Below are positions 9,313 through 31,872 of a stretch of 31,872 nt of DNA, in pieces; position 1 is the first letter of the stretch; the number at the start of each line of letters is the position of its first letter. Location: positions 1-31,872 of the IMG/VR virus record IMGVR_UViG_3300026184_000291. The stretch is one strand, 5' to 3'. The translations under genes were made by a program, and so were the position numbers. Source of the stretch: a virus. The notes under the pieces are model-generated. The model was not told the origin of the DNA, ran no database searches, and saw only the letters and a program-made list of their open reading frames with translations.

Positions 9313-9696
9313 ATGGCTACCGAAAATGGAACCATCGACTTTACGGTCGAAGCGGGGGCGGATCTGTCCGCCTATCAGTACCGCATCATCGACCTGGCGG
9401 GCACGCTCGCCGAGTCCTCGGACGTCGCCATCGGCTCGCTGCGCAATAAGCCCAGCGCGTCCGGTGTCGGCGCTCAGGTCGACGTATTCGGCAAGATGAA
9501 GGGCATCGCCGGGGCCGCGGTCGCGGCGCAGGCCGGTCTGAAGGTCGCCTCGGGCGGTTTTCTGATCGCTGTCGCTTCGGGAGACAATGCCGTGCCGGTC
9601 GGGAAGAACCTCAACGCCGCCGTGGCGTCGGGGGACATCTTTTCGTTCTTCGGCAATTTCATCAATGGCGCCGCGGTCAAGACGAGCTCGCAGTAA
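9313..9696 (+). CDS. Capsid decoration-like protein (DUF2190-type)
   Basis: A 127-residue Gly/Ala/Val-rich protein immediately before the major capsid gene. Low-complexity beta-rich sequence (DLSAYQYRIIDLAGTLAE, KPSASGVGAQVDVFGKMKGI, AVPVGKNLNAAVASGDIFSF) resembles DUF2190-type or head-decoration proteins, which in many phages sit between protease and capsid. It would bind the outside of the head lattice and stabilise it. A GGAGG Shine-Dalgarno lies at about 9299-9303. The fold assignment is by pattern and position, not by an alignment. Confidence 0.8.
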   Translation: MATENGTIDFTVEAGADLSAYQYRIIDLAGTLAESSDVAIGSLRNKPSASGVGAQVDVFGKMKGIAGAAVAAQAGLKVASGGFLIAVASGDNAVPVGKNLNAAVASGDIFSFFGNFINGAAVKTSSQ

Positions 9697-9741: not shown

Positions 9742-10725
9742 ATGGCTAACAAACTGAAGCGCGTAGTCTTTGCCGCGACGGGACGCGAGCTGCACATCGA
9801 CGTGCCGCTCTCGAACCTGGCGATCGACTACACCCCGGCCGAGATGATCGCCGATCAGCTCTGCCCGACGGTCCCCGTGCCGAACCTCAGCGGGCAGATT
9901 CCGATCTTCAGCCGCGGCGACCTGCTGCGTTCGGACAACGACCTGCGAGCCCCCGGTACCGAGGCGAACAAGGTGCACCGCAACGTCTCGAGCGATTCGT
10001 TCCTGTGCAAGAATCGCGCGCTCAAGACCGACGTCACGCTGGAAGACCGGAACAACTCCGACCCGATCTACGTGCAGAAGCTCTACAACGGGGCGGCGAC
10101 GTTTCTGAAGACCAAGCTGCTCATCAACAAGGAGTCCCGTGTGGCCCTGACCGTGACGTCCGGCAGCAATGTCGGTTCGTACTCGGCGTGCGGCTCGTCC
10201 TGGACCGACCACACCAACTCGGACCCGCTCTCCGACGTGCAGACGATGCTCGACAACGTGCAGGACCTGACTGGTAAGCGGCCGAACAAGGTCGTGATGG
10301 GCGTCCAGGCCTGGCGGCACTTCCGCCGCAACGACACGGTGCGCAACCTGATCTTCGGCACCAACAACGGCGGCGGCTTCCCGTCCCGTGATCAGGCGGC
10401 GAACCTGCTCGACGTGGGCCAGGTACTGGTCGGCGAGACGTACGAGAACACCGGGGCCGAGGGCCAGAGCGAGGACCTGTCCTCCATCTGGGCCGACCAC
10501 GTGTTTGCCGAGTACGTGCCGGGCGCGCCGAGCATCTTCGAGCCGTCCTTTATGTACGAGTTCCGGTGGACACAGGCCGGCATCCCGAACATGCAGGCCG
10601 AGCGGCATCCGTACAACCCGAAGACGAAGAGCGAGGAGATCGAGCTCGGGTTCTACACGGAGGACCAGAAGGTGACCGGGGCCGACTACGGCTTCCTGCT
10701 CACCAATTGCACCTCGTCCACCTAA
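9742..10725 (+). CDS. Major capsid protein
   Basis: A 327-residue protein in the canonical position after protease/scaffold and decoration genes. It begins ANKLKRVVFAATGRELHIDV, with a segment PAEMIADQLCPTVPVPNLSG typical of capsid N-arms. It continues with TLEDRNNSDPIYVQKLYNGA, a central QTMLDNVQDLTGKRPNKVVM helix-strand pair and a C-terminal part with MYEFRWTQAGIPNMQAERH. This pattern fits the HK97-fold capsid type found with Mu-like portal and protease genes. AGAGGAAA precedes the ATG. It uses strongly preferred GC-rich codons, as expected for the most abundant protein. It is the most likely partner of any virion glycosylation by the 1021-aa enzyme downstream. Confidence 0.9.
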   Translation: MANKLKRVVFAATGRELHIDVPLSNLAIDYTPAEMIADQLCPTVPVPNLSGQIPIFSRGDLLRSDNDLRAPGTEANKVHRNVSSDSFLCKNRALKTDVTLEDRNNSDPIYVQKLYNGAATFLKTKLLINKESRVALTVTSGSNVGSYSACGSSWTDHTNSDPLSDVQTMLDNVQDLTGKRPNKVVMGVQAWRHFRRNDTVRNLIFGTNNGGGFPSRDQAANLLDVGQVLVGETYENTGAEGQSEDLSSIWADHVFAEYVPGAPSIFEPSFMYEFRWTQAGIPNMQAERHPYNPKTKSEEIELGFYTEDQKVTGADYGFLLTNCTSST

Positions 10726-10794
10726 TAGGTAGCACGATAGGCTAGGACACTAATGGCCAGGGACGGCCACCAACACGACCAAGAGGACAGACAG

Positions 10795-10965
10795 ATGGCA
10801 CTGACCCCACACAAGAAAGACCCGAACCGCGAAGAAGAGATGGCACGCAAGGAGAAAGACCCGGGCTCATTCGGCATCATGATGATCGACGGTAAGCCGG
10901 TGACCAACGCCGCGCGTCGCGCCGAGGTGCACGAACAAAAGCGCAACGAAAAGGCCGGTAAGTAA
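10795..10965 (+). CDS. Small charged protein after the capsid gene
   Basis: A 56-residue hydrophilic protein beginning MALTPHKKDPNREEEMA, with a central GSFGIMMIDGKPVTNAARRA and a Lys/Glu-rich tail. I prefer the ATG at 10795 because AAGAGGA (10781-10787) is 7 nt upstream. An in-frame ATG at 10753 would add 14 hydrophilic residues and has only TAGGA before it. I do not recognise the family. It lies between the capsid gene and the glycosyltransferase gene, in the same orientation. Confidence 0.65.
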   Translation: MALTPHKKDPNREEEMARKEKDPGSFGIMMIDGKPVTNAARRAEVHEQKRNEKAGK

Positions 10966-11011
10966 CGCCGGGCCATCATAGGTAGCTACTAGCTGACAAG
11001 GAGCACAGACC

Positions 11012-14000
11012 ATGTACATAGTGATTCATTGCGGAGGTCTGCCGTTCAACGGCGAGACCATCAAGACCGAGGCCCTCGGCGGCAGCGAGACGGCGGCGTA
11101 CTACGTGGCCATGGAGCTCGCCGAGCGCGGTCACAAGGTGACGATGTTCACCAACACGAACAAGGGCGGCGAGTGGGATGGCGTCCTGTACGTGCCGGCG
11201 GGCAAGGCCACCGAGGCAGCCCCACTTGGCGAGCACTTCCACTACTACGCGGCCCACACGCCGCACGACGTTTTGATCATTCAGCGCCACCCGAATGCCT
11301 TTACCCACAAGTATGCCTCCAAGGTAAATCTGCTGTGGCTGCACGACCTGGCCCTGCACCGCTTCAAGGGAAACATCAACGCTCAGATGGTCAACGTAGA
11401 CGGCGTGCTGACAGTGTCCGAGTGGCACAAGCGGCAGGTGTGCGAGGTCTATGACCTGGACCCGGACGTCGTACACTCTATCGGCAATGGCATTGACCTG
11501 TCGTTGTTCGATAAGGACCTGTGGAATGTTCCGGCCGATGCGCCCGCGAGGCATGTGTCGAAGGACCGATCCAACGGGCGCAAGCCGCTGTTGTTCGCCG
11601 CCCGCCCCGAGCGCGGCCTGGAGGAGCTGGTGCAGCCCGGCGGAGTCATGGAGCTGTTGGCTAACAAGGACCCGCACTACCATCTGTACGTATGCGGATA
11701 TGTCAACACCACAGGGCAGATGAAGGACTACTATGACTATCTGAACGCGCAGTGCGAGCGCCTGCCGAACGTCACGATGTTGGGCGCGTTGAGCAAACAG
11801 GAGCTGGCCGACGTCATGCGCCTATGTAATGCGTACGTCTACCCGACGTCGTTCGAAGACACGTCCTGCATCGTCGCGATGGAGTGCGCGGCGGCCGGGC
11901 TGCCGTTCTTTGCATTCAAGACGGGGGCGCTGCCCGAGACGACCAAGGGTGCCGGGGCGCGGCTGCTCGACCTGAAAGACGGCGAGCCCGACTTGGAGAG
12001 GTTCGCCAACGCCGTGCACAGCGCGTACAAGAATGGTCGGCTGTCCGACATGTCCGTCGCCCAACGCGACGCGGCATTTCTGTATTCATGGGGCCACGCC
12101 GTGGACCGGCTGACAAGTGTCATTGACTCGAAGTTTGGCGGCTCTCCCGGCGCGATCTTGACCGACCTCATCCGCATGTCGGACGTCTATGCCGCCCGGC
12201 ATTACCTGGAGCACTATCCCGTCGATCGCGATGATCCGATCGTGGCGGCCAAGCTCAATGAGCTGGAGGAATGCTATGCCTTCACCGAAAGCCCCGAGGC
12301 GTACCGCGACCACTACGCCGCGTACTATCAGTATGAAAAAGACCGGGGCGTGGAGTACGGCCCGGAAGACGTCACTGGCACTATGCGCTTTCGTTCGGTG
12401 GCCGATCGTCTTATGCGTGGCGGTCGTGATTCTGGCCCTGCGGTCAGCGAGGGGGGCACGGTCCTTGATTATGGCTGCGCGCACGGGGCGTACATTATCC
12501 CGCTTGCAAAGGCATTCCCACACCTGCGGTTCGTCGGGGTCGACATCTCCGAGTCCAACATCGAAAAGGCCCGCCAGTGGGCCGCAGACGCAAAGTGCGA
12601 CAATGTCGAGTTCTACGTCGGAGAGGTCGACGTCGAGGAAGGTCGTATACATGAGCGATCGGAGGTCTTCGCAAAAGCCGCCAACGAGCCGCTGGTAACG
12701 ACCAGGCTCGACCCGCTGGCTGCCCGCAAATTCGATGCCATTATTGCGGCCGAGGTCCTGGAGCATGTGATGGACCCGCAGGCACACATCGACGTGCTGC
12801 ACAGTGCGTTGAACGAGGGCGGTCTGTTCATCGCCACGACGCCCTACGGGCCGTGGGAGTCTCGCGGCTATAAGGCGCATTGGCCGTGGCGAAACCACGT
12901 GCACCACTTCGAGCGACAGGACCTGCACGACATGGTCGGTCACTTCGATGACTTCAAGGTGCAGGTGGCCCCACAGCCGAACGCTCCGGAGCCGGTGGGG
13001 TCCTATGTGTGGTCATTCCGAAAGACCGGAGATGCCCGCGCCAGGTCGATTGACTATGACCGAAAGCTGCGCCAGCTCTCACCGCGCCAGACCGTGACGC
13101 TGGCCATGATCGTGCGGGACGCGGCTGGGTCGATTCGCCACTGCCTGGAGCATGCGCTCCCGCTGGTCGACGAGCTGGTAATGGCCGTAGACTCCGAGAC
13201 TTCCGACGAGACGCGCGAGATCGTGGCAGGCTATATGCAGGAGCACTGGCCCGAGCTGCCGTTTACGGTATTCGAGAATGACTCGCCGACCAAGATCGGG
13301 TTCGACGAGGCGCGCAACGCCACGGTCGAGAAGGCGAGCGGTGACTGGGTGCTGTGGATCGACTCCGACGAGACCGTGTTCGCCGGGGCCGACTACTTCC
13401 GCGAGCTGCGGCCCAATCAATTCGGGGCCTATGCGGTTCAGCAGCATCACTTCGCCATTGACCCGCCCCAGGTTCTGCAGACTGACCTACCCGCTAAGCT
13501 GTTTCGTAATCACCGGGGCATCCGGTTCTATGGCGTCGTGCATGAGCACCCGGAGAAGTCCCTGAATAACGGGCCGGGTCGGGTCCACGTCACACAGCAC
13601 CTGCGGGTGTCCCACCCCGCCTACGCCACCGAGGGCGTGCGGCGCGGGCGGTTCGAGCGCAACTTCCCGCTGCTGCTCAAGGACCGAGAGAAGCACCCGA
13701 AGCGCACGCTCGGCAAGATGCTGATGCTGCGGGACTGCGCACAGATGGCCCAGCGAATTCACGAGCGCGAAGGCCGTGTGACCGACGAGATGGTCAAGAC
13801 CGCGGCCGAGGGCGTGAAGCTCTTCGAGGAGCTACTGGAAGAGGCCGACGGCCGGATGCTGCTCAATGCCCTGGAGTTTTATACCGGTTGCGCGCAGTTG
13901 GTCGGCGAGGTCTTCACCTATCGCCTGGTGCTGGACGCCGACCTCTACGGCCGCCCGTTGAACGAGGGCGACGGTACCGAGGTGTTGGCCCGATTCTGTG

Positions 14001-14077
14001 CCCGAGACCACCTTGACAAGCTGCTCAAAAAGTTAAACGACGAGCGGCTCGACAAGTTCGGCTATCGGTACATGTGA
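11012..14077 (+). CDS. Three-domain GT4 - SAM methyltransferase - GT2 enzyme
   Basis: A 1021-residue protein inside the head operon. Residues about 1-380 are a GT-B, GT4-like glycosyltransferase: ALGGSETAAYYVAMELAERG near the N-terminus, VDGVLTVSEWHKRQV, and DTSCIVAMECAAAGLP (a D-x7-E form of the donor-binding motif). Residues about 440-650 are a class I methyltransferase: VLDYGCAHGAYI (from residue 484), FVGVDIS, FDAIIAAEVLEHV and GGLFIATTPYG. Residues about 690-900 are a GT2 (GT-A) domain: VTLAMIVRDAAGSI, ARNATVEKASGDWVLWIDSDE with DxD at 784-786, and LFRNHRGIRFYGVVHE. AAGGAG (10998-11003) gives a strong start. It probably builds and caps a methylated oligosaccharide. The substrate is unknown; virion protein, DNA or host polysaccharide are all possible. 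Confidence 0.88.
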   Translation: MYIVIHCGGLPFNGETIKTEALGGSETAAYYVAMELAERGHKVTMFTNTNKGGEWDGVLYVPAGKATEAAPLGEHFHYYAAHTPHDVLIIQRHPNAFTHKYASKVNLLWLHDLALHRFKGNINAQMVNVDGVLTVSEWHKRQVCEVYDLDPDVVHSIGNGIDLSLFDKDLWNVPADAPARHVSKDRSNGRKPLLFAARPERGLEELVQPGGVMELLANKDPHYHLYVCGYVNTTGQMKDYYDYLNAQCERLPNVTMLGALSKQELADVMRLCNAYVYPTSFEDTSCIVAMECAAAGLPFFAFKTGALPETTKGAGARLLDLKDGEPDLERFANAVHSAYKNGRLSDMSVAQRDAAFLYSWGHAVDRLTSVIDSKFGGSPGAILTDLIRMSDVYAARHYLEHYPVDRDDPIVAAKLNELEECYAFTESPEAYRDHYAAYYQYEKDRGVEYGPEDVTGTMRFRSVADRLMRGGRDSGPAVSEGGTVLDYGCAHGAYIIPLAKAFPHLRFVGVDISESNIEKARQWAADAKCDNVEFYVGEVDVEEGRIHERSEVFAKAANEPLVTTRLDPLAARKFDAIIAAEVLEHVMDPQAHIDVLHSALNEGGLFIATTPYGPWESRGYKAHWPWRNHVHHFERQDLHDMVGHFDDFKVQVAPQPNAPEPVGSYVWSFRKTGDARARSIDYDRKLRQLSPRQTVTLAMIVRDAAGSIRHCLEHALPLVDELVMAVDSETSDETREIVAGYMQEHWPELPFTVFENDSPTKIGFDEARNATVEKASGDWVLWIDSDETVFAGADYFRELRPNQFGAYAVQQHHFAIDPPQVLQTDLPAKLFRNHRGIRFYGVVHEHPEKSLNNGPGRVHVTQHLRVSHPAYATEGVRRGRFERNFPLLLKDREKHPKRTLGKMLMLRDCAQMAQRIHEREGRVTDEMVKTAAEGVKLFEELLEEADGRMLLNALEFYTGCAQLVGEVFTYRLVLDADLYGRPLNEGDGTEVLARFCARDHLDKLLKKLNDERLDKFGYRYM

Positions 14078-16019: not shown

Positions 16020-17003
16020 ATGGCAAAGAAAATCTACGGGCAGACTGCCCACCTGGCCATAGGGTTCCAGAACAGCTTCGGCACTGCTAAGGTCGATTCG
16101 CTGTTCACGATCCCGTTTACCGACGAGAGCGTGGCTCTCGAACAGGAGCAGCTCATCGACCCGAACATGCGCGGGGTATTCGACGAGGGCGACCACTACA
16201 CCGGCAAGAGCCAGTGCCCCGGTGACGTCGGGGCGACGGCGCAGCCGATCCCGCTCGGTGCGCTGCTCAAGTCCGTACTCGGCCCGCCCACGAGCACCAA
16301 GGAGGCCTCGGCGGACGTGTACCAGCACGTCTTCACGCCGCGCACGGATGACTTCGACGACTTCGCGGCCAACGTCCCTGTCACACTGTACAAGTACCTA
16401 CAGACCGGATCGGCGCAGTTGTTCTATGATCTCGTCGGTACGACTCTCGAACTCGACATGCCGAACGGCGACTTTCTCAAAGCCAAGGTGACGTTCGCGG
16501 GCGGTAACTTCGACCAGCAGGCCAACGTCACGCCTACGTATCCCGTGGGCAAGCGCTGGACTTGGGACGTTACGAGCGTCACCATCGGTGGGTCGGCACA
16601 GCCGATGATCTCGGCGCTCAATATCAAGGACGAGGAGAACATCGGCCCAGAGTGGTCCCTCGACCCGGCGCGCGGCAAGTTCCCCCGCTTTGTGAAGCGC
16701 ACGGGCGAGCGCGTGACGACGATCTCTGGCACGTTGCGCTTCTCCGATACCAACGAATTCGATGAGTGGGTGTCACAGTCCGAGCGCGAGCTGGTGGCCT
16801 ACCTCAAGGGCCCGACCACGATCTCCAGTGGCTACCAGGACGCCGTGAAGGTCGAAGTGCCGATGTTCCGGTACTCGGAGTTCAAGCCCAATGCGGGCGG
16901 TAACGGTCCGATCGACGTGTCGTTCACTGCCAAGGGCGTGTATTCTGTGGACTCCGGGTTTCCGTTCCGTATCACGCTGACCAACACACAGACCGCCTAC
17001 TAA
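16020..17003 (+). CDS. Major tail tube protein
   Basis: A 327-residue protein preceded by AGGAGG. The N-terminus (AKKIYGQTAHLAIGFQNSFG) with SLFTIPFTDESVALEQEQLI, and the central FYDLVGTTLELDMPNGDFLKAKVTFAG, GKRWTWDVTSVTIGGS and RVTTISGTLRFSD, are beta-rich pieces typical of siphovirus tail tube proteins. It lies immediately before the frameshifting chaperone pair and the tape measure gene, the conserved tail order. Monomers polymerise as hexameric rings around the tape measure. Confidence 0.85.
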   Translation: MAKKIYGQTAHLAIGFQNSFGTAKVDSLFTIPFTDESVALEQEQLIDPNMRGVFDEGDHYTGKSQCPGDVGATAQPIPLGALLKSVLGPPTSTKEASADVYQHVFTPRTDDFDDFAANVPVTLYKYLQTGSAQLFYDLVGTTLELDMPNGDFLKAKVTFAGGNFDQQANVTPTYPVGKRWTWDVTSVTIGGSAQPMISALNIKDEENIGPEWSLDPARGKFPRFVKRTGERVTTISGTLRFSDTNEFDEWVSQSERELVAYLKGPTTISSGYQDAVKVEVPMFRYSEFKPNAGGNGPIDVSFTAKGVYSVDSGFPFRITLTNTQTAY

Positions 17004-19692: not shown

Positions 19693-20043
19693 ATGTACCG
19701 GCTATTCGTCGACAGCAATACCGGCGTGACGCTGTACCCCAACTGGGACTTTCAACAGACCGGGGAGAAAATCGAGGACCGGCACCGCGCCCGCGGCGGG
19801 CGCGAGTACGTCTATAAGTGGGGTCACTTCGACGGCTTTAAGTTCGGCGTGTCGTTTGTCGATTCGGCCACGATGGCCGTCGTCAATTCGTGGTGGCAGT
19901 CGAACACCGATCTGTTGTTCATGTCCTCGGGCGATACGGTCGTGCACAGTGTGCACCTGGTCGGGAAGAATCCGCCGATCGGCAAGTACGTCGAGCCATA
20001 CGACAGTCTGTTTTCGGGTACCATCGAGCTGGGGACCTACTGA
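19693..20043 (+). CDS. Minor tail protein, distal-tail candidate
   Basis: A 116-residue beta-rich protein directly after the tape measure gene. Aromatic-rich sequence (MYRLFVDSNTGVTLYPNWDF, REYVYKWGHFDGFKFGVSFV, AVVNSWWQSNTDLLFMSSGD) resembles small distal-tail adaptors that link tube end to hub. It starts one base after the tape measure stop and its TGA overlaps the next ATG (TGATG), so the three genes are probably translated together. Exact family not recognised. Confidence 0.78.
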   Translation: MYRLFVDSNTGVTLYPNWDFQQTGEKIEDRHRARGGREYVYKWGHFDGFKFGVSFVDSATMAVVNSWWQSNTDLLFMSSGDTVVHSVHLVGKNPPIGKYVEPYDSLFSGTIELGTY

Positions 20044-22292
20044 TGAGCTATCAGGTCTCCAGCTGGTTTCAGACACAACTCCAGTCGCGCACGGCTGAGC
20101 CGGTGCGTAGATTTGAGATTGAGAATCACGTAGGTGGTTCGTGGGAGACATTCGTCGACTCCTACGATGATTGGGCGGTGGGCGTCAATTCGAATAGCGT
20201 CGTGACGAGCGATGGATTTGTCGGTGTCAGTAGTGATAGTGACATTTACCTATGCGGCCCGTCTGGAAACACGTCTGTCCGTAGTATTGATATGACGTCT
20301 TGGGTCGATACGATGCACTGCATTACTATTGACGCATGGGTTAGGCCAGAGGCGAATGCCAGATATTCGTCTCTGTTTCAAGCCAACCCCAATGATAGTG
20401 CGAATAGACTTAATTGTCATTTCCCGTGGGTCGACGGTATTATTTATTGGGACTTTGGCGATAGTAGTAGCGAGCGTTTAACCAAGGCTTGGAATAGTGC
20501 ATGGAATCACGTATATGGACATTGGGTATTTCGTGCTGGGTCCGGGCAGCCTATGACCATACACAGAGACGGTGTGTTGGTGGCTAGCGGTGGTTTCTAT
20601 CATGGCCCGTTTGCCCCCGGCACAAAAGAATTGGGCATCGCTGCTTATTTACAGACGGGGTCTTATTGGATAGGCAGGGTCGCAAATTTTCGTGTGTGGT
20701 CTTCATATATACCAGATACCGACATAAGCAGTCTATCTGTCTATAAGGCCGATGGGTCTGAAGTCGATTTATTGCTGTGCCTTCCGTTTGATGAAGGTTC
20801 CGGTTCGTATGCCAGAGACATCACGACAAACGCAAATACCGGTTACATTGTGTCGCCGGTATGGTCATCGCACCCATCGCCGTATCCGTCGTACTTCACT
20901 TCGAGTGAGTATGCACCCACGTCAAACGCGCTACCGGTCGCTACCAGCTCCCTGACGTGGTCCGCATCGCTCAATGGGCAGGGGCTTGCGCTGCAGACCC
21001 GCGTCTCGACCGACGCCGGGTCCAATTGGGGCGCGTGGACGGCCGGGACTGACGCATCACCTATCGATACGCTGCCGGACACAATCACGGCCGATACGCG
21101 ACTGCAATTTCGGGCCGTGTTCTCGATGTCGGATATCAATACGCCAGGGCCGCTGCTCGACTCGGTCGGACTTTCCCTGGTAACGACAGCGGTCAATTCG
21201 GACTACTCCGACCGCGTCCTTAAGTGGCCGACCGTCAAGCGGGACTGGAACAGCGTGCGGCCGCAGAGCGTGAACGTCGATCTCGCGAACGAAGACGGAG
21301 CGCTCAATTTCTTTTATCAGAGCAACGCGAGTCTGGCAAAGCGATGCCTAGTGCGGTTCGGGTTTACACACCCCACCAGTGGCGACGAACTCGTCACGCT
21401 GTACTCGGGCAAGACCGACCACATGCAGTACGACAAGGGCAAGGCCACGCTGTCGCTGCTCGACAAGTTCAAACAGCTTACCGAGCGCGAAGTCGGGACC
21501 AACGACGCGCCCGTGACGTTTACCGATTCGGCCACACCGCCCGACATTGCCTGGGCCGTGGTCACGAGTTGGGGCGGGTACTCGGGCGTGCAGTCAACGA
21601 GCAACCCGGACATCGACTACCAGTCCTGGCTCGACTGGGCCGCCGTGTTCAGTGCCGACGGCGTGTATATGAACGGCAACATCCAGGGCAAGAAGTGCAG
21701 TGAGGTCTTGGCCAAACTGGCGGACTACACGCAGTCGGCGATCTTCGTCGAGAACGATATGCTCACGTTTCGCCGATTTAGCGCAGCGGACTCGGCGCAG
21801 ACGGTGCTCGACAACGACTCGATCCTCGACCTGTCACTGGAAGTCAACGACGCGGACATCGTCAATCGGCAGTACGTGCTCGGCGGCTACAACGTGTCGG
21901 TTGACACGTGGACCATCACGGGCCTGTCGGTCAATACGACTTCGGTCAATACGTTCGGCGCGCGCGACCAGACGCAGAAGTCAGACTTCGTCTGGTACGT
22001 GGACAGCACCTCGGCCAACGTACAGGCCACACGAGAGACATACGTCAAGGCGATGCCGTATCCCAAGCTGCGCGTGCGAGCTCCGCTGGTCCCCGCCGTG
22101 CGGCAGATTGGCGACACCATCACGGTGACGGACGAACAGCGCGGCATCTCGGGCGAGTCGTACCGGCTGATGGGGTATCAATTTAACCTTGATACCGGGG
22201 AGTTCGAGACGGACATCGACGCATCGCAGTACTCGGGGCAGTTCACGCTCGATGTCTCGACGCTCGATAATACCACCGACCTACTGTTATAG
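20043..22292 (+). CDS. Tail hub protein with low-GC LamG/concanavalin-like insert
   Basis: A 749-residue protein from ATG 20043. A frame extension to 19890 exists but overlaps the preceding gene by about 150 bp. Residues about 1-25 (SSWFQTQLQSRTAEPVRRFE) and about 384 onward (YSDRVLKWPTVKRDWN, VNVDLANEDGALNFFY, LVRFGF) look like a tail-hub/baseplate protein. Residues about 45-290 form a LamG-like jelly roll: ITIDAWVRPEANARYSSLFQ, HWVFRAGSGQPMTIHRDGVL, YWIGRVANFRVWS. Then a fibronectin-like segment (SLTWSASLNGQGLALQTRVS). The lectin part is distinctly poorer in GC than the flanks (about 26 of 60 bases versus 43 of 60 in sampled lines), suggesting an acquired receptor-binding domain. Confidence 0.85.
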   Translation: MSYQVSSWFQTQLQSRTAEPVRRFEIENHVGGSWETFVDSYDDWAVGVNSNSVVTSDGFVGVSSDSDIYLCGPSGNTSVRSIDMTSWVDTMHCITIDAWVRPEANARYSSLFQANPNDSANRLNCHFPWVDGIIYWDFGDSSSERLTKAWNSAWNHVYGHWVFRAGSGQPMTIHRDGVLVASGGFYHGPFAPGTKELGIAAYLQTGSYWIGRVANFRVWSSYIPDTDISSLSVYKADGSEVDLLLCLPFDEGSGSYARDITTNANTGYIVSPVWSSHPSPYPSYFTSSEYAPTSNALPVATSSLTWSASLNGQGLALQTRVSTDAGSNWGAWTAGTDASPIDTLPDTITADTRLQFRAVFSMSDINTPGPLLDSVGLSLVTTAVNSDYSDRVLKWPTVKRDWNSVRPQSVNVDLANEDGALNFFYQSNASLAKRCLVRFGFTHPTSGDELVTLYSGKTDHMQYDKGKATLSLLDKFKQLTEREVGTNDAPVTFTDSATPPDIAWAVVTSWGGYSGVQSTSNPDIDYQSWLDWAAVFSADGVYMNGNIQGKKCSEVLAKLADYTQSAIFVENDMLTFRRFSAADSAQTVLDNDSILDLSLEVNDADIVNRQYVLGGYNVSVDTWTITGLSVNTTSVNTFGARDQTQKSDFVWYVDSTSANVQATRETYVKAMPYPKLRVRAPLVPAVRQIGDTITVTDEQRGISGESYRLMGYQFNLDTGEFETDIDASQYSGQFTLDVSTLDNTTDLLL

Positions 22293-26109: not shown

Positions 26110-26447
26110 CGGTGGTCCTCCTCTCGTGAGTATGATGGCCAGCCGCACCGCGGGCAGCCGACACCGTCGAATCGGGTCTTGCAGGTCGGGCAGTATCGCT
26201 CGCCATGTTCGCGATACCTGGGCGGCTCGTCGAACAGGCCGACTTCGAAGCCGACCTGTTCGGCCGCGTCGCGTCGAAGCTCTTCGGCGAAGTCAGCAGC
26301 GTCTAACATTTCCAACGCCCGTTTGATCCTCTCCGCCTCGTGCCGCGAGATTCCGGCGCCCTGTACGACATACATTGGCGGAACGCAGAAATATTGGGCG
26401 CAGTGCGGATCACCGCACGGGCACTTGACGATTTTATACTTACTCAT
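26106..26447 (-). CDS. Zinc-ribbon-like protein of unknown function
   Basis: A 113-residue protein with a Cys-rich N-terminus (C9, C11, C16, C21 in VKCPCGDPHCAQYFC), a helical centre (SRHEAERIKRALEMLDAADF) and a C-terminal ribbon C86-P-T-C89 ... C98-P-R-C101 that would hold zinc. AAGGAG lies about 10 nt before the ATG. It ends in ATGA with the Pmp3-like gene and starts 8 bp inside the end of the deaminase gene. A nucleic-acid or protein-binding role is plausible; no family identified. Confidence 0.75.
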   Translation of the reverse strand: MSKYKIVKCPCGDPHCAQYFCVPPMYVVQGAGISRHEAERIKRALEMLDAADFAEELRRDAAEQVGFEVGLFDEPPRYREHGERYCPTCKTRFDGVGCPRCGWPSYSREEDHR

Positions 26448-26967
26448 AGTACTGTGGCTCCTTTATCGGCGACGGTCCGAACTGCCACGAACCGGCGCGG
26501 CGGGACGACTCCCACAGTGCCCGGGCCGCGTCGTCGTGCGCGTATGGCTCGGCAAAGACGATCCGGCGACAATCGGTATTTAGTAACATCTTGACGCAGG
26601 CCAGGCACGGGGACACGGTCACGTAACACACGTCGATGAGCCGCGCGTCGGGGCACTGAAGAAGCGCATTCTGTTCGGCGTGCACGGCCTCACACGCCTC
26701 GATCCGCTCCCCCGACGCCGCGCTCGATCCGTCGCAGGCATAGTCATACTCGTTGACGGCGACGTCGCCCTCGGGGTCGAACTCCATTGTGACACCCGTG
26801 ACCTGATTGCAGTGCGGCATCCCCGCCGGCCGGCCGTTATACCCGGTCGTGAGCACGTGACCATCCACATCGACCAGCACGGCGCCGACGGCGCGGCGCA
26901 GGCACGTCGAGCGCATCGCGACGACCCGGGCCATCTCTAAGAAGTATTCGTCTTTACTCGGTCTCAT
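26440..26967 (-). CDS. dCMP deaminase
   Basis: A 175-residue cytidine/deoxycytidylate deaminase converting dCMP to dUMP, the precursor of dTMP. Zinc site: H96-A-E98 in CEAVHAEQNALL and P120-C121-x2-C124 in SPCLAC. The N-terminus MRPSKDEYFLEMARVVAMRS, TGYNGRPAGMPHC and the terminal basic patch fit the phage/bacterial dCMP deaminase family. I use the ATG at 26967 because GGAGGGG precedes it; a frame extension to 27027 overlaps the TSCPD gene further. It sits in the nucleotide metabolism block. Confidence 0.92.
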   Translation of the reverse strand: MRPSKDEYFLEMARVVAMRSTCLRRAVGAVLVDVDGHVLTTGYNGRPAGMPHCNQVTGVTMEFDPEGDVAVNEYDYACDGSSAASGERIEACEAVHAEQNALLQCPDARLIDVCYVTVSPCLACVKMLLNTDCRRIVFAEPYAHDDAARALWESSRRAGSWQFGPSPIKEPQYYE

Positions 26968-27349
26968 GACTCCCCTCCCTCTCTGTGTGACGTTCGTATA
27001 GCATCGCCAGGCCAGGCCCCTCGTCAAACGCCCGGCGAACCTCGGCGCCGATCCGGGCGACGAGCGACGGGCAGACGTCGGTCGACCCCGGCAGGACGTG
27101 GCGCGTCTTGGCCGAGTGCACGGCCTCGAGCTCTTCGATGATCAGCCCGAGCGGCAGCCCCTCTCGCAGCGCCATCGAGACAAACCGCGTGAGGGCCGTG
27201 ACCCACTCGTGAAGATCCGGGTCGTCGAGCCGGACAAAGAGCTCGAGCGGCCGGCCGTCGGCGTCCCAGTTGACGGTGACGAACAGCGGCCGGCCGTCGT
27301 CGAGCCGGGCCAGGCGGGTCGCCCCGGTCGAGGTGCGCTCGATGGTCAT
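26954..27349 (-). CDS. Standalone TSCPD-like (ribonucleotide-reductase-associated) domain protein
   Basis: A 131-residue protein. DDGRPLFVTVNWDADGRPLE (18-37), FVSMALREGLPLGLIIEELE (56-75) and DVCPSLVARIGAEV (91-104, C93-P94) correspond to the pattern of the TSCPD domain normally found at the C-terminus of B12-dependent ribonucleotide reductases. There it is thought to bind metal or regulate. No reductase is in this window; the domain stands alone among nucleotide genes. It could act on the host or on another phage enzyme. The start ATG overlaps the end of the thymidylate-synthase-family gene (ATGA), and it overlaps the deaminase by 14 bp. Confidence 0.72.
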   Translation of the reverse strand: MTIERTSTGATRLARLDDGRPLFVTVNWDADGRPLELFVRLDDPDLHEWVTALTRFVSMALREGLPLGLIIEELEAVHSAKTRHVLPGSTDVCPSLVARIGAEVRRAFDEGPGLAMLYERHTEREGSHETE

Positions 27350-28194
27350 TGCGGGCGAATCCTCCAGGCGGGCGTCTCTCCGGCGGGCCGGTCACGACAA
27401 ATCTCCAGCGACTGCCACAACCGCTTCCACCCGTCGCGCCAGGTCACGAGCTCGGCCGGCAGCGGGTCGACGTCGTCGGCCCCTACCGAGGGCGTGGTCT
27501 TCAGCACGTGCCGCGCGTCCTCGAGGTCTCTTTCGTAGAGGTGCGACGACGCCGCCGTCCAGTAGACGAGGCCCGGCTCAATGACGTCGGGGTTTCTCGG
27601 CTCTTCGTTCATGAGATTAAAGTTGTAGAGCCACGCGACGCGGGCCGCGACCATCGCGAAGTTGAAGAAGTCATACGGCACGCCGAGCCACGCGTCGGAT
27701 GACCGCATAAACACGTGCGCGTTGAGCCGTCCCGCCCGGATGTTGAATGTCATCGACACGGTGCACGGGATATCCCGCGACGCCGCCGGGTTTGGCCGCC
27801 AGATCGTCAGTACGGCCTGGCGGGTGTCCCGGTCGTCGAGTAGCTTTCGCACGACGTACGAGATTTGCTCTTCGATGCGCGGCCCGTATGCGCCCGCGAA
27901 CGTGACGCCGTCGTCAGAAAACTGGGCGATGTTCGGGTTGTACGGCGCGATCGTCTCGACGCGATCGTCGCCGGCCAAGATCCACATCGCCTCCGCGGCC
28001 ATGAACTTATAGCTCAGTTTGCGGGCCGGCGCGACGACGACGGGGCGGGCGATCGGGTAGGCGACAGAGTTGTGCAGCAGCTCAACCGTGCGCTGCCCAC
28101 GTGGCGCCACGGCGTTGTGACGTTGCGCGACGAGGTGTTGAAGAATGTGCAGCCACGCGACGGTGGCGGACCGATATTTGAACGGGACACTCAT
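27346..28194 (-). CDS. Thymidylate-synthase-family enzyme, likely dCMP-specific (hydroxy)methylase
   Basis: A 282-residue member of the ThyA fold. Catalytic Cys C144 in DIPCTVSMTFNI; MRSSDAWLGVPYDFFNF holds R164, S165, D167; SSHLY supplies H218 and Y220. The key feature is D175 in PYD, where dUMP-using ThyA has Asn (N177 of E. coli). Asp at this position is known from T4 dCMP hydroxymethylase, and N-to-D mutants of thymidylate synthase act on dCMP. T145 replaces the His usually after the catalytic Cys. The enzyme therefore probably makes 5-hydroxymethyl-dCMP or 5-methyl-dCMP rather than dTMP. GAGGAG precedes the ATG. It is ATGA-coupled to the kinase upstream. Confidence 0.88.
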   Translation of the reverse strand: MSVPFKYRSATVAWLHILQHLVAQRHNAVAPRGQRTVELLHNSVAYPIARPVVVAPARKLSYKFMAAEAMWILAGDDRVETIAPYNPNIAQFSDDGVTFAGAYGPRIEEQISYVVRKLLDDRDTRQAVLTIWRPNPAASRDIPCTVSMTFNIRAGRLNAHVFMRSSDAWLGVPYDFFNFAMVAARVAWLYNFNLMNEEPRNPDVIEPGLVYWTAASSHLYERDLEDARHVLKTTPSVGADDVDPLPAELVTWRDGWKRLWQSLEICRDRPAGETPAWRIRPQ

Positions 28195-29126
28195 TTTAGC
28201 AGCTCCTCAATTAATGGATAGGGCTCATGACGGCGAAATCGTCTCCAGTACTGCGGGTGCGGGACTTCGGCGGCCGTGACGCCGGCGCGGAGACACCACG
28301 CGGCGGCGTTTTCACCGAGCGCAATGACCTTGCGCGGGCTGAGGGCCCCGACGAAGCTCGGGTCCGTCTCCCGGCCGGCCGCGTCGGCGGCGTTGGCCCA
28401 GTAGAGGGCGTCTTCGGGGACTCCCGCCGCCTCGAGCCGGTCGGCGAGCCAGATGGAGCACCCGCCCCGGTGCAGGCCCGAGAACGGGGTCCGATTCGCC
28501 TCGCTCGGCGCCGTCTGGCCGCCCCCGGGCCGGCCGCTGACGATCAGGACCGAGACCCCCGGTCGCCAGACCCCGCCCCCAGGGGCGCCGAGAGGCGGCC
28601 TCCGGCGGACCCTCTCTAGGGCGTCTCGTAGCCCCTCTAGGCTCGCGCTGCGGCGGCAGTCGTAGACGACCAGGGGTAGGCCATCGACCGACGCCCGGGT
28701 GGCCAGCTCGGCGTAGCGGTCGTATACGGCCGCCAGCTTCGCGGCCCGGTCGAGGTACTCTCGATCGGCGCGGGCCCGCCACGTCTTGAGGAGCTTCCCG
28801 ATCGGCGGCAGGCACAGGGCGACGACGCCGCCGCGGGTCGCCGCCACGCGTCCGAGAATCCGCGCCCGCGCCCGACCGACGCGGTCGGCCCCGTTCCGCA
28901 TGACGACGCCATAGATCGGCTCTGAGAGCCACGAGCGGTCGAGGACGATGTCCTCGCGGGTCGTCTCTCGGGTCAGCGAGGTGAAGTAACGGTGCGCGAC
29001 GTCGGCCTCACCGAGGTACGGCCCGTGGTGGTCCACGCGCGCGGTCGCCGGGTTCGGATAGAGCCGCGCGATCGTCGTCGACTTGCCTGACGCGTCGGGG
29101 CCTTCGAAGATCGTCACGCAGGTCAT
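28191..29126 (-). CDS. Thymidylate-kinase-like P-loop kinase fused to UDG-like domain
   Basis: A 311-residue fusion. Residues 1-175 are a nucleoside-monophosphate kinase: Walker A FEGPDASGKST (K15, S16), then IVLDRSWLSEPIYG with the DR(S/H) motif (D63-R64), and a lid-like Arg-rich helix. Residues about 190-311 look like the uracil-DNA-glycosylase superfamily: VLIVSGRPGG, TPFSGLHRGG, LYWANAA, KVIALGENAAAW and VPHPQYWRRF. The start ATG 29126 has GGGGAGG upstream and an ATGA overlap with the next gene; an earlier ATG at 29171 lies deep in that gene. A kinase for modified dCMP or dTMP is likely, with the C-terminal domain perhaps a base sensor. Confidence 0.8.
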   Translation of the reverse strand: MTCVTIFEGPDASGKSTTIARLYPNPATARVDHHGPYLGEADVAHRYFTSLTRETTREDIVLDRSWLSEPIYGVVMRNGADRVGRARARILGRVAATRGGVVALCLPPIGKLLKTWRARADREYLDRAAKLAAVYDRYAELATRASVDGLPLVVYDCRRSASLEGLRDALERVRRRPPLGAPGGGVWRPGVSVLIVSGRPGGGQTAPSEANRTPFSGLHRGGCSIWLADRLEAAGVPEDALYWANAADAAGRETDPSFVGALSPRKVIALGENAAAWCLRAGVTAAEVPHPQYWRRFRRHEPYPLIEELLK

Positions 29127-29482
29127 CGGCCGGCCTCCCCGGCCTCGACGCGGCGATGGTTCTCGCCCCACTTTGTCTCGAGCGCCACGTGGAGGTCTTC
29201 GGCCGTCAGGCCGAGCGCGAGAGCGGCGTTTGCCCAGAATTGAATGATGTCGGTCATCTCCGTGGCGAGGCGTTTTCGGGCAACCGGGTCATTGAGGACC
29301 GCCTCGAGTCGCTGCACATCGGCGTATGACTTCCACGGCTTCCACGGCAGCTCGGCAAGGACCTCGGTTACCTCGACCTGCATTGCGAGAAAATTCTCCT
29401 TTGCGCCGGCGACGCCCTTACCAGTCGGCCAGTTCATCCGGTCTTGTAGCGCGGCCTGTTCGGTCATGATTCGTTCAAACAT
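29123..29482 (-). CDS. All-alpha NTP pyrophosphatase (dUTPase/dCTPase, MazG-type)
   Basis: A 119-residue helical protein with the family metal-binding pattern E37-x2-E40 (QVEVTEVLAELPWKPWK) and E75-x2-D78 (ATEMTDIIQFWANAALAL). These bind magnesium and hydrolyse (d)NTPs to monophosphate and pyrophosphate. The pattern with Trp-rich LPWKPW is close to dimeric dUTPase-like phage enzymes; T4 dCTPase/dUTPase belongs to the same superfamily. I use ATG 29480-29482 (GAGGAG upstream); a frame extension to 29638 lies inside the methyltransferase gene. It overlaps both neighbours by 1-4 bp. Confidence 0.85.
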   Translation of the reverse strand: MFERIMTEQAALQDRMNWPTGKGVAGAKENFLAMQVEVTEVLAELPWKPWKSYADVQRLEAVLNDPVARKRLATEMTDIIQFWANAALALGLTAEDLHVALETKWGENHRRVEAGEAGR

Positions 29483-30570
29483 TAAGAAAGCTCCTCTCGT
29501 TGAATAGTTGCCTTGCGCAAGTCGATGACTTCGACCCGCGGCCGGCGTAGCCGCTTGTCCTGATCGATGGCCTTGCGCACGAGCCCGCCGATCCAGTTGG
29601 CGATGGGCGGCATCACGGCGCGGGTCATCACGTCCCAATCGATATCAGACGCGCGCTCCGACGTCGGCAACACGCGCCAGCGCCGGGGATACCCACAGAG
29701 GGCCTTGAACTCGGCGAAGTTGACGTACCGTACCTCTGTCGGGTGAAACGCCGTGCAGCCGACGAGACACGGGCAGACGCGGTCGGCGGCGAGGCGCTGC
29801 CACTTAAACCCGGGCCGCCCGACGACGAACTTGCGCCCGGTCGAGGCGGCCCGGGTCTTTCGCGTGTGCTCCGGGTTCTTACGATTGAACGCGTTGTACA
29901 ACTTCTCCCCGGGCCGAGTATACCGATATATTTTTTTGAGGTTTTCGTTCATGACTGGCTTGCGACTGTCTTCGTCTGTCTTACACTGGACGCTCGCAAG
30001 GACCTCGCCGGTCGTCGGTGCCTCTTTGAACTTGACCCACCGGTCCCAGTCAAACGCGACCTTGTGCGCGATCATAAAGTACCGGACCCGGCGATGGCTC
30101 CCCCCGACGTACTGCGCGTCGAACCGCAGGTGTGTGACCGAGTACCCGAGGGCGACGGCGCGCGCGGCCAGGCCGTCGACGAATGGGCGCCCGGTCGTAA
30201 AGGCCCGGTCGACCGACTCCCAGACCCAGACGGTCGGGCGCAGGTCCTCGAGCAGCCCGAAGTGCCGGCGCGTGCAGTCGACGCGGGCATCTTGTTCCCA
30301 CGACTGCTCGGCCTGTGTTCGCTTTCCGTTGAGCGCCGACCAGGCCGCGCAGGGCGGGTTGCCGTAGACAAACGGCACGCCTCGGTAGTCCTTGCGCGGC
30401 CACGAGTCCGGTCCGACAAAGATCGGCATCTTCGGAAAGTTGGCCCGTGCCGTGCGCACGCCGTAGCCGTCGTCCTCGAAGTGCGCGAGCACGTCGAAGT
30501 GCCGACGCACGCCCTCCGTGAAGCCGCCGCCGAAGACGTATGCCCCGAGGGCCTGAGGCTTCTTAGCCAT
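29482..30570 (-). CDS. Divergent C5-cytosine DNA methyltransferase
   Basis: A 362-residue protein with the order of 5mC methyltransferase motifs: a degenerate motif I (GAYVFGGGFTEGV), motif IV GNPPCAAWS with catalytic C74, motif VI WESVDRA in place of the usual ENV (E118), motif VIII AQYVGGSHRRVRYF (Q153, R160, R161, R163) and a C-terminal motif IX/X region (FKALCGYPRRW, RAVMPPIANWIGGLV). It should methylate C5 of cytosine in DNA, but the degeneration leaves room for another acceptor or reaction. CAGGAG precedes the ATG. It is placed between the glycosyltransferase candidate and the NTP pyrophosphatase. Confidence 0.85.
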   Translation of the reverse strand: MAKKPQALGAYVFGGGFTEGVRRHFDVLAHFEDDGYGVRTARANFPKMPIFVGPDSWPRKDYRGVPFVYGNPPCAAWSALNGKRTQAEQSWEQDARVDCTRRHFGLLEDLRPTVWVWESVDRAFTTGRPFVDGLAARAVALGYSVTHLRFDAQYVGGSHRRVRYFMIAHKVAFDWDRWVKFKEAPTTGEVLASVQCKTDEDSRKPVMNENLKKIYRYTRPGEKLYNAFNRKNPEHTRKTRAASTGRKFVVGRPGFKWQRLAADRVCPCLVGCTAFHPTEVRYVNFAEFKALCGYPRRWRVLPTSERASDIDWDVMTRAVMPPIANWIGGLVRKAIDQDKRLRRPRVEVIDLRKATIQREELS

Positions 30571-31591
30571 TTATGATTCTCCTGAGTTGGTTTAAAAACT
30601 TGCGACGAGACCACGATCGACGTTGAAATGTCTCCCGCTGCCCGTAGGCGACGTCGGCGCGATCGGCGATCGACAGGCGCTCAAAGTCTCGCGGCGCCAC
30701 GTCATACGCCGGTCCGATGGGAGCCATCTCTGCGGCATCGCCGAGCAGCGGTACGCCCCTCACTGCCGCAAATACGAATCGTGCCCGCCACCACCCGCCG
30801 CCGGCGTGCGGATACTTTGGCGAAAGCAGGCCCTCGTACTTCGACATCGTGGCCACGAGCTCAGATTCTGCGATTCGCGGGTGCGTTCCCTTTTTGTGCC
30901 CGTACCAGTCGACCGGCCACCTCAGGTTGAGGTCATTGAGCCAGCGCGAGTGATCCCCCAACGTGGCGAGAAGCCAGCGTCTCCCGTGTCGCGAGGTAGG
31001 TGGCACGAACGACTTTGCCTCTGACGGGATCTCGACCAACGGCGACGGGTCGACCGCGTCTATGCCGATCTCGGAGCGCACGCCCAGCTTGTCGACGTCG
31101 CCCCAGGGGAACACGTAGCACAGGACGCGGTGGCGATATGTGCGCGTGGCCGCCGTGTCGGTCACAAACTTCTCAATCCGACGACGAAGCCTCGGCGACG
31201 CCAACACCTCTTCGTTATGGCGACGCTGCACGGCGATCGTCGACTGCCAAAGGTAATAGTAGTCCCTGGTCGACAGCGTTCCGATACCATTCATGATTGT
31301 CTTAAATTGCCAGTCGTCAAACGAAACGATCGCGTCGGGCCGCTTGACGAGTGCCGTGAACGCCCCCAAACGGTACATTGCACCAAGCATTACAGGATTG
31401 GCCATAAACACAACGACGCGATCGTATTCTTTGAAGTTCTCGAACGGGGACGCCGGCCGCCAGTCGACGTCGTGGCGCAGCGCACGAAGACCTTTGACGA
31501 GCAGCGCCGGAGCGCTGACGTACTTGTTGATCGGCCTTTGGCGCTGACTGCCGATCTGCGTGGCCGTCATCCCCGTCACAAGAATCTTCAC
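30563..31591 (-). CDS. GT-B-like candidate (DNA) glycosyltransferase
   Basis: A 342-residue protein from GTG 31589-31591 (GGAG 8 nt upstream, GTGA overlap with the gene before). N-terminal Rossmann-like strands: KILVTGMTATQIGSQRQRP, then YDRVVVFMANPVMLG and PDAIVSFDDWQF. C-terminal: WLLATLGDHSRW, VDWYGHKKG, KYEGLLSPKYPHAGGGWWR (251-269) and FVFAAVRGVPLLGD (272-285). The late Gly-Trp-Trp-Arg loop followed by helix-Gly-x-Pro is the layout of GT-B donor sites. Length is near that of T4 beta-glucosyltransferase (351 residues). Donor and acceptor unknown; DNA base is inferred from neighbours. Confidence 0.7.
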   Translation of the reverse strand: MKILVTGMTATQIGSQRQRPINKYVSAPALLVKGLRALRHDVDWRPASPFENFKEYDRVVVFMANPVMLGAMYRLGAFTALVKRPDAIVSFDDWQFKTIMNGIGTLSTRDYYYLWQSTIAVQRRHNEEVLASPRLRRRIEKFVTDTAATRTYRHRVLCYVFPWGDVDKLGVRSEIGIDAVDPSPLVEIPSEAKSFVPPTSRHGRRWLLATLGDHSRWLNDLNLRWPVDWYGHKKGTHPRIAESELVATMSKYEGLLSPKYPHAGGGWWRARFVFAAVRGVPLLGDAAEMAPIGPAYDVAPRDFERLSIADRADVAYGQRETFQRRSWSRRKFLNQLRRIING

Positions 31592-31872
31592 TTCGCGAGC
31601 TCCAAGATGCCGTGGCTCTCTTCGTAGCGAAGGTCGGCCGATGTACCGCCGTTTTCCATGTACTCGGCCACGGTCTTCGATTTGAAGTACTTTGCAAAGC
31701 GCTTGTGCGCAGCGGACCCCTCCCGCTTCGGGTTCTCTGAAACGAGCCACTTGATCTTCGTGGTCTCGTCATATGATCGCGAACGGCCGGCCGTGCTAGC
31801 CGTCGTCTTCTTGGCCGTCGTCTTCTTGGCCGTCGACTTCTTGGCCGTCGACTTCTTGGCCGTCGTCTTCTT
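31588..31872 (-). CDS. Lys-rich repeat protein, partial (runs off right edge)
   Basis: An open leftward frame enters from the right edge; 94 residues are visible and the N-terminus is missing. The visible start is a pentapeptide repeat (KKTTA or KKSTA, five copies). Then GRSRSYDETTKIKWLVSENP, REGSAAHKRFAKYFKSKTVA and EYMENGGTSADLRYEESHGI follow, ending ELAK. The repeat resembles lysine-rich tails of histone-like DNA-binding proteins. The C-terminal domain resembles a small module I recall from phage and bacterial proteins without function. Its TGA overlaps the GTG start of the glycosyltransferase candidate. Confidence 0.7.
   Translation of the reverse strand, partial: KKTTAKKSTAKKSTAKKTTAKKTTASTAGRSRSYDETTKIKWLVSENPKREGSAAHKRFAKYFKSKTVAEYMENGGTSADLRYEESHGILELAK
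31798..31872. repeat. 15-bp tandem repeat encoding KK(T/S)TA
   Basis: Unit GGCCGTCGTCTTCTT or GGCCGTCGACTTCTT, present at 31813-31827, 31828-31842, 31843-31857 and 31858-31872, with a partly degenerate copy at 31798-31812. The units differ only in one T/A base (Thr/Ser codon). The array continues past the edge, so copy number is unknown. Confidence 0.95.

Follow-up and report, generated by a model that had tools for sequence, protein, structure and literature searches.

A GT4-methyltransferase-GT2 fusion protein tied to one phage capsid protein clade, a candidate virion glycosylation enzyme

Introduction

Phage-encoded glycosylation of virions has been described in mycobacteriophages. Passages of two papers that both cite Freeman et al. 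(2023) state that the capsid and tail tube of these phages are glycosylated by phage glycosyltransferases (GTs) (PMC12363180), that the glycans reside at the C-termini of both proteins (PMC12619734), that the phages concerned are Che8, Corndog and Myrna (PMC12363180, PMC12619734), and that capsid glycosylation requires Che8 gp110 (PMC12363180). This precedent, which those passages bear out, had been invoked in an earlier note on a 31,872-nucleotide stretch of viral DNA (IMG/VR virus record IMGVR_UViG_3300026184_000291, positions 1 to 31,872; hereafter the window). Close to its major capsid protein (MCP) gene, the window encodes a 1021-residue fusion of a GT4 glycosyltransferase, a methyltransferase and a GT2 glycosyltransferase. 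With a probability of about 0.6, we propose that this fusion is a virion glycosylation enzyme, made late together with the head proteins, that builds a short glycan with a methyl cap, most likely on the C-terminus of the MCP.

In Che8, the phage GTs and a methyltransferase domain are distributed over three genes at the extreme right of the genome, and the GT2 and methyltransferase domains are fused in gp108; here the head operon encodes one three-domain protein beside the MCP. The Che8 MCP is also Ser/Thr-ended (FNKTGS, with SDGS at the end of the Che8 tail protein). Glycans of the Che8 type reside on the capsid C-terminus; for the present system a glycan is predicted.

The nearest relatives of the GT2 domain with solved structures are GmaR, the flagellin GlcNAc transferase of Listeria, and SunS and ThuS, the S-glycosyltransferases of glycocins. 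The GT domain of GmaR adds N-acetylglucosamine (GlcNAc) to flagellin, and the helical tetratricopeptide repeat (TPR) domain that follows it has been suggested as the part that holds the acceptor (PMC9638930). An anti-repressor domain is also part of GmaR. The acidic motifs of these enzymes are kept in the fusion, in which, unlike in GmaR, SunS and ThuS, the GT2 domain is joined behind a methyltransferase and a GT4 domain.

Results and Discussion

Three intact domains in one protein

The open reading frame (ORF) of the fusion begins with ATG behind a good ribosome-binding site (AAGGAG, 10998-11003), and a scan of the interval between it and the MCP gene for promoters and terminators gave nothing convincing. 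Pfam places Glyco_transf_4 at residues 23-164, Glycos_transf_1 at 202-341, Methyltransf_23 at 477-644 (E 7e-20) and Glycos_transf_2 at 699-789. The AlphaFold (AF2) model, for which an alignment of 58 viral sequences was the input, is predicted with confidence along the entire chain (pLDDT 91.4, pTM 0.91). The earlier note had described a 1021-residue GT4-methyltransferase-GT2 protein containing two GTs of different folds, and had named structure prediction of the domains as a check. The ORF, the Pfam matches and the model agree with that description, as do 57 aligned relatives (34-49% identity to the fusion of the window) that share the three domains and their order.

The first domain has the two Rossmann domains and the E/D-X7-E motif of GT4 enzymes (D283/E291 in the window, with R198, R201 and H111). 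Its model matches GT-B enzymes, among them MshA with Z 34.0 (349 residues aligned at 2.9 Å, residues 1-376). The second is a class I S-adenosylmethionine (SAM) methyltransferase, with motif I (LDYGCAHG; D486, G488, G492) and an acidic ribose-binding residue, D511. The third, of the GT-A fold, contains D727, D784-x-D786 and the motif VHEHPE, and is followed in the model by four long helices (residues 874-964). A TPR domain occupies that place in GmaR (PMC9638930), and by analogy the helices are possibly an acceptor-binding part.

GGSE, H111, D112, R198, R201, E291, D727 and D784 are invariant across all 58 sequences. Nearly all sequences keep K262, D786 (57-58 of 58), the VHEHP motif, and methyltransferase motif I and D511 (53-57 of 58). 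Position 283 is E in 43 and D, as in the window, in 15. The catalytic signatures of both phage-encoded GTs are therefore intact, and since the motifs are retained throughout, selection appears to maintain all three domains as enzymes.

Profile searches of the PDB with the GT2 domain gave GmaR (1.5e-25), SunS (1.2e-21) and ThuS (1.7e-19) as the closest solved structures, and a single-sequence comparison also gave GmaR (1.9e-13). The similarity extends over the GT-A domain and includes the DxD (D784/D786). The structural match list of the whole model is occupied by matches to the GT4 domain; SunS and ThuS are present in it as well. An NCBIfam scan of four members of the fusion family ranked SunS as the top-scoring GT2 family, at 28.8-61.6 bits against a cut-off of 350 for TIGR04195, so that the domain is related to SunS but is not SunS. 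Among solved structures, these comparisons place the GT2 domain closest to protein and peptide glycosyltransferases, and transfer to a protein side chain is predicted.

A literature search, mostly without subscription papers, found no description of a GT4-methyltransferase-GT2 fusion family. The best viral structural matches are A0A6J5T3W3 and A0A6J5M7M7 of uncultured Caudovirales, long proteins with GT or methyltransferase annotation whose domain arrangement cannot be superposed on the fusion (root mean square deviation ~28 Å over the whole length). Podovirus ctKR88 (MW202524, Manatee Spring) has GT4 and GT2 in one 770-residue protein encoded one small gene after the MCP, with further GT and methyltransferase genes downstream, shortly after the MCP (L003:3120-12000). 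It differs from the fusion in that GT2 precedes GT4, the methyltransferases are separate genes and the phage is of another type; it seems to be a solution reached independently at a comparable position.

A core gene of one capsid protein clade

A search with the fusion as query returned 42 viral loci. To avoid circularity, another search was run with the MCP only, blind to the enzyme, and its best 80 contigs were counted, with 188 further relatives outside the count. All 69 contigs that extend more than 409 nt past the MCP gene encode the fusion, next in the conserved order, and each of the 11 contigs without it ends within 409 nt of the MCP gene. A second MCP search covered MCPs of 28-51% identity scored on a clade profile. 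Among the matches listed, the fusion is present in every contig with an MCP score of at least ~379 bits that extends far enough, and in no relative scoring 236 bits or less, many of which have about 6 kb of downstream sequence; none of the listed relatives at 28-32% identity has it. The contig sets of the MCP searches include near-duplicates. One apparent exception, L146, is a contig cut after two radical SAM genes 3' of the MCP gene; L142 has the same order, followed by the fusion. In RcWaterboi and YPCBV-1, which have distant MCPs and a similar gene order, the MCP gene is followed directly by the connector genes, without the fusion.

Distances among the fusions correlate with those among the portal, MCP, terminase and tail tube proteins (r 0.64-0.86; none of 499 permutations as high), as expected from shared descent. 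By this distribution the fusion is a core gene of its phage clade and not peculiar to one phage.

Within the sets searched, the fusion was found only in viruses. The sole match outside them (L047:1297-4368, in a metagenome-assembled genome of Acidiferrobacterales) has the GT4 half in frame with a penicillin-binding-protein-like sequence, beside a broken MCP gene and near the contig end. When 369 bacterial genomes from the same class were searched by profile, the match in L047 was the only one. The join is probably an assembly chimera; a bacterial origin of the fusion was rejected on this reading, and no host was inferred from L047.

The MCP tail as candidate acceptor

MCPs of fusion-bearing phages have a short Ser/Thr tail, typically YGFLLTAVNSST (..VNSST). 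Ser or Thr at position -3 followed by Ser at -2 occurs in 83% of 89 distinct enzyme-bearing MCPs and is absent from all 46 MCPs that lack the enzyme; the latter are mostly one or two residues shorter at the C-terminus (LGYFFSACVA). Ser and Thr make up 14% of the MCP overall. The MCP of the window has a Ser/Thr-bearing C-terminus of this kind, which may be the acceptor. Comparison of the C-termini of the tail tube and of the 127-residue head protein encoded upstream of the MCP revealed no Ser/Thr tail like that of the MCP: the tail tube mostly ends in Tyr and lacks Ser/Thr at -1 and -4, and the head protein C-termini are variable. Both were rejected as main acceptors because their C-termini have no conserved Ser/Thr. 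The MCP tail is thus most likely the acceptor among the candidates compared.

The proposal of virion glycosylation is based on the linkage to the MCP, the resemblance of the GT2 domain to protein glycosyltransferases, the Ser/Thr tail that tracks the enzyme and the mycobacteriophage precedent. It also draws on the retained catalytic residues, the glycan-tailoring genes in the operons of relatives (described below) and the GT2-GT4 fusion of ctKR88. In the scheme that we infer for acceptor, sugars, step order and methyl target, the GT2 domain would place the first sugar on Ser/Thr, most likely in the (V)(N/T)SST tail of the MCP, the GT4 domain would add a second sugar with retention, and the methyltransferase domain would O-methylate and thereby cap the glycan. 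GT2 is assigned the protein-facing step because the GT domain of GmaR glycosylates flagellin.

Several observations weigh against this interpretation. Common descent confounds the association between MCP tail and enzyme, for the pattern would be the same if both had originated once. Four MCPs (L014, L037, L040 and L091) end in VQSCA(A) and their phages keep the fusion, and other enzyme-bearing MCPs end in GVGSAQ or SAQANGLT. A strict SST tail is therefore not required, and the Ser-Cys end of the VQSCA(A) proteins could serve as acceptor instead. GmaR and SunS belong to a GT2 class (cd02511) that also includes lipooligosaccharide glucosyltransferases, which may simply lack solved structures. 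Che8 gp110 (Glyco_transf_25) gave no match to the domain profiles of the fusion and only chance BLAST matches, and this GT25 enzyme has no counterpart in the fusion clade. For lack of that homology, the fusion is classed by analogy only: it likely works like the mycobacteriophage system and is not homologous to the Che8 GT25 enzyme.

A small number of mycobacteriophages have virions with demonstrated glycosylation. In the present clade one core gene, the likely source of the enzyme, accompanies the MCP in at least 69 contigs, and the MCPs, down to ~37% identity, come with a testable candidate acceptor tail. If the proposal is correct, sugar-coated capsids would be a standing feature of a large uncultured phage group, and the fusion gene together with the MCP may suffice to rebuild the reaction in E. 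coli. The predicted function would make the fusion a three-domain glycan-building enzyme for glycoengineering, and an SST-tailed MCP next to a fusion gene could serve as a marker for finding others.

Alternative roles

The glycan might instead be placed on another virion protein, namely the 127-residue head protein, the tail tube or, in relatives, large variable proteins. All of these are encoded in the same operon as the fusion, mycobacteriophages glycosylate their tail tube too according to a passage in PMC12619734, and the large proteins of relatives (424-1320 residues) adjoin the enzyme, one of them with a head-decoration match. We regard this as unlikely, since the window lacks those large proteins and, given the tail tube and head protein C-termini described above, only the MCP tail tracks the enzyme. 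The 127-residue gene product is a decoration or scaffold candidate and a candidate for a secondary acceptor. The earlier note had suggested a glycan added and methyl-capped on the capsid or on a neighbouring decoration-like protein. The first part is likely right in kind, in view of the linkage, the GT2 domain, the MCP tail and the precedent. The second did not hold: the ORF between the MCP and the fusion encodes a short charged protein, and the decoration candidate lies upstream of the MCP.

A role in modifying surface glycans of the infected host (lipopolysaccharide, LPS, or capsule), for instance to prevent superinfection or promote release, is improbable. In its favour, LPS synthesis commonly involves GT4 and GT2 enzymes broadly of this kind, the structural matches of the model include WaaG, and serotype-converting glycosyltransferases of temperate phages are cited in a passage of PMC12619734. 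Against it, the gene belongs to the late head operon and goes strictly with one MCP clade, whereas a host-specific surface trait should be swapped often; moreover, the solved structures closest to the GT2 domain are those of protein glycosyltransferases.

It had also been considered that the fusion might act with DNA-modification genes, glycosylating and methylating a hypermodified base of the phage DNA. The window does encode a dCMP deaminase, a TSCPD protein, a thymidylate-synthase-like protein and a C5-methylase at 26-31 kb. These genes are in a different cluster and on the other strand, and co-occurrence with the fusion is poor. Genes of the thymidylate synthase/hydroxymethylase type, as expected for DNA glucosylation of the 5hmC/5hmU type, score above the cut-off in 5 of 22 records that have the enzyme, and C5-methylases in 3 of 20 (many of the records are 41-54 kb long and some are fragments). 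The window itself has a gene of the first type. A DNA-modification role is weakened accordingly, and we consider it very improbable.

The cluster itself (26440-31750, minus strand) comprises genes for a dCMP/cytidine deaminase, a TSCPD protein, a thymidylate-synthase-like protein, a diverged C5-cytosine methylase and two proteins of 326 and 395 residues without a Pfam match. It looks like a modified-pyrimidine pathway.

Least probable of all is a cargo gene without a virion role at a tolerant site of the head operon: the region does take inserts, with radical SAM, methyltransferase and sulfotransferase genes nearby in relatives, but those come and go, whereas the fusion is invariably present, has intact domains and shares its descent with the portal, MCP, terminase and tail tube genes, and is therefore core and not cargo.

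The head operon of the window and of its relatives

All genes of the head operon are on the plus strand, in the order terminase, Mu-type portal/F fusion, protease, 127-residue head protein, MCP, short charged ORF, GT fusion, connector genes, tail tube and tape measure (Table 1). The placement between capsid and connector genes in a shared orientation is thus as first described. Megablast of the window against phage records gave no match. The fold of the MCP matches 3bjq (E 6.6e-22) and the lambda capsid. The start of the short charged ORF, M(A)LTPxxxDPNRxxExxRKxKDPxSF, is kept in about ten relatives. A Pfam scan of the 127-residue head protein gave no match; the syntenic gene in YPCBV-1, a Chromohalobacter phage, carries a DUF2190 annotation.

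Table 1. Coordinates of features in the window.
Feature	Position	Strand	Basis
127-residue head gene upstream of MCP	9313..9696	+	phrog_673
Major capsid protein (MCP), HK97 fold, Phage_cap_E	9742..10725	+	phrog_1005 7e-60; Pfam
Last four MCP codons, TSST, proposed acceptor tail	10711..10722	+	(V/H)(N/T)SS(T) tail, enzyme-bearing clade only
Short charged ORF between MCP and fusion	10753..10965 (start probably 10797, MALTPHKKDPNREEE...)	+	phmmer matches, ~ten loci
GT4-methyltransferase-GT2 fusion enzyme, 1021 residues	11012..14077	+	ORF, translation, Pfam, AF2 model, relatives
Domain 1, residues 1-377, GT4 retaining GT-B glycosyltransferase	11012..12142	+	Pfam, structure match, residues
Helical linker, residues 378-444	12143..12343	+	AF2 secondary structure
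Domain 2, residues 478-672, class I SAM methyltransferase	12443..13027	+	Pfam Methyltransf_23, residue conservation, PDB profile
Domain 3, residues 690-870, GT2 inverting GT-A glycosyltransferase, GmaR/SunS type	13079..13621	+	PDB profile, residues
C-terminal helices and protein end	13631..14074	+	AF2 model
Tail tube protein, ends ..TNTQTAY, without Ser/Thr terminus	16020..17003	+	Phage_tube_2 4e-18

The head operons of relatives carry further genes. The first set contains thirteen radical SAM proteins, often as a pair in one operon, and L142 and L146 each have two. They occur at L012, L013, L019, L023, L025-L027, L043, L142 and L146, either in the interval from portal to protease or in that from MCP to fusion; WAGQ and C-terminal cysteines are conserved, and some have a SPASM match. 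Other operon genes encode FkbM and other class I methyltransferases, Sulfotransfer_3 proteins, and sulfotransferase-like P-loop proteins identified by motif alone (HTGTHY ... RNPVEVFKSH). A second, free-standing GT4-like gene of 315-333 codons lies between the MCP and the fusion in L038 (2627-3571), L129 and L130. In L007-L014 and L032-L036, a gene for a ~175-residue family (TRADGxIE..NIVTxxGLN) overlaps or abuts the end of the fusion and is followed by large variable proteins of 424-899 residues and then by the connector. These large proteins are possibly head fibres and may carry glycans.

The sulfotransferases, radical SAM enzymes, methyltransferases and extra GT4 proteins of relatives would elaborate the glycan or the tail. 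A broader reading, which we offer tentatively and with more doubt than confidence, is that the clade treats the MCP C-terminus as a modified-peptide substrate, on which the core enzyme and the accessory genes produce a variable sulfated or methylated sugar coat. The head operon of the window contains no radical SAM, sulfotransferase, additional methyltransferase or additional GT gene, and there the fusion would therefore act alone. The description of the fusion as a self-contained enzyme fits the window in this respect; it does not extend to the many relatives that add tailoring enzymes.

In the tail region, an ORF at 19890-22289 encodes a LamG/concanavalin-like domain. Its first kilobase coincides with a dip in GC content (20001-21000; 0.51 against ~0.62 elsewhere), which suggests a swapped receptor-binding part.

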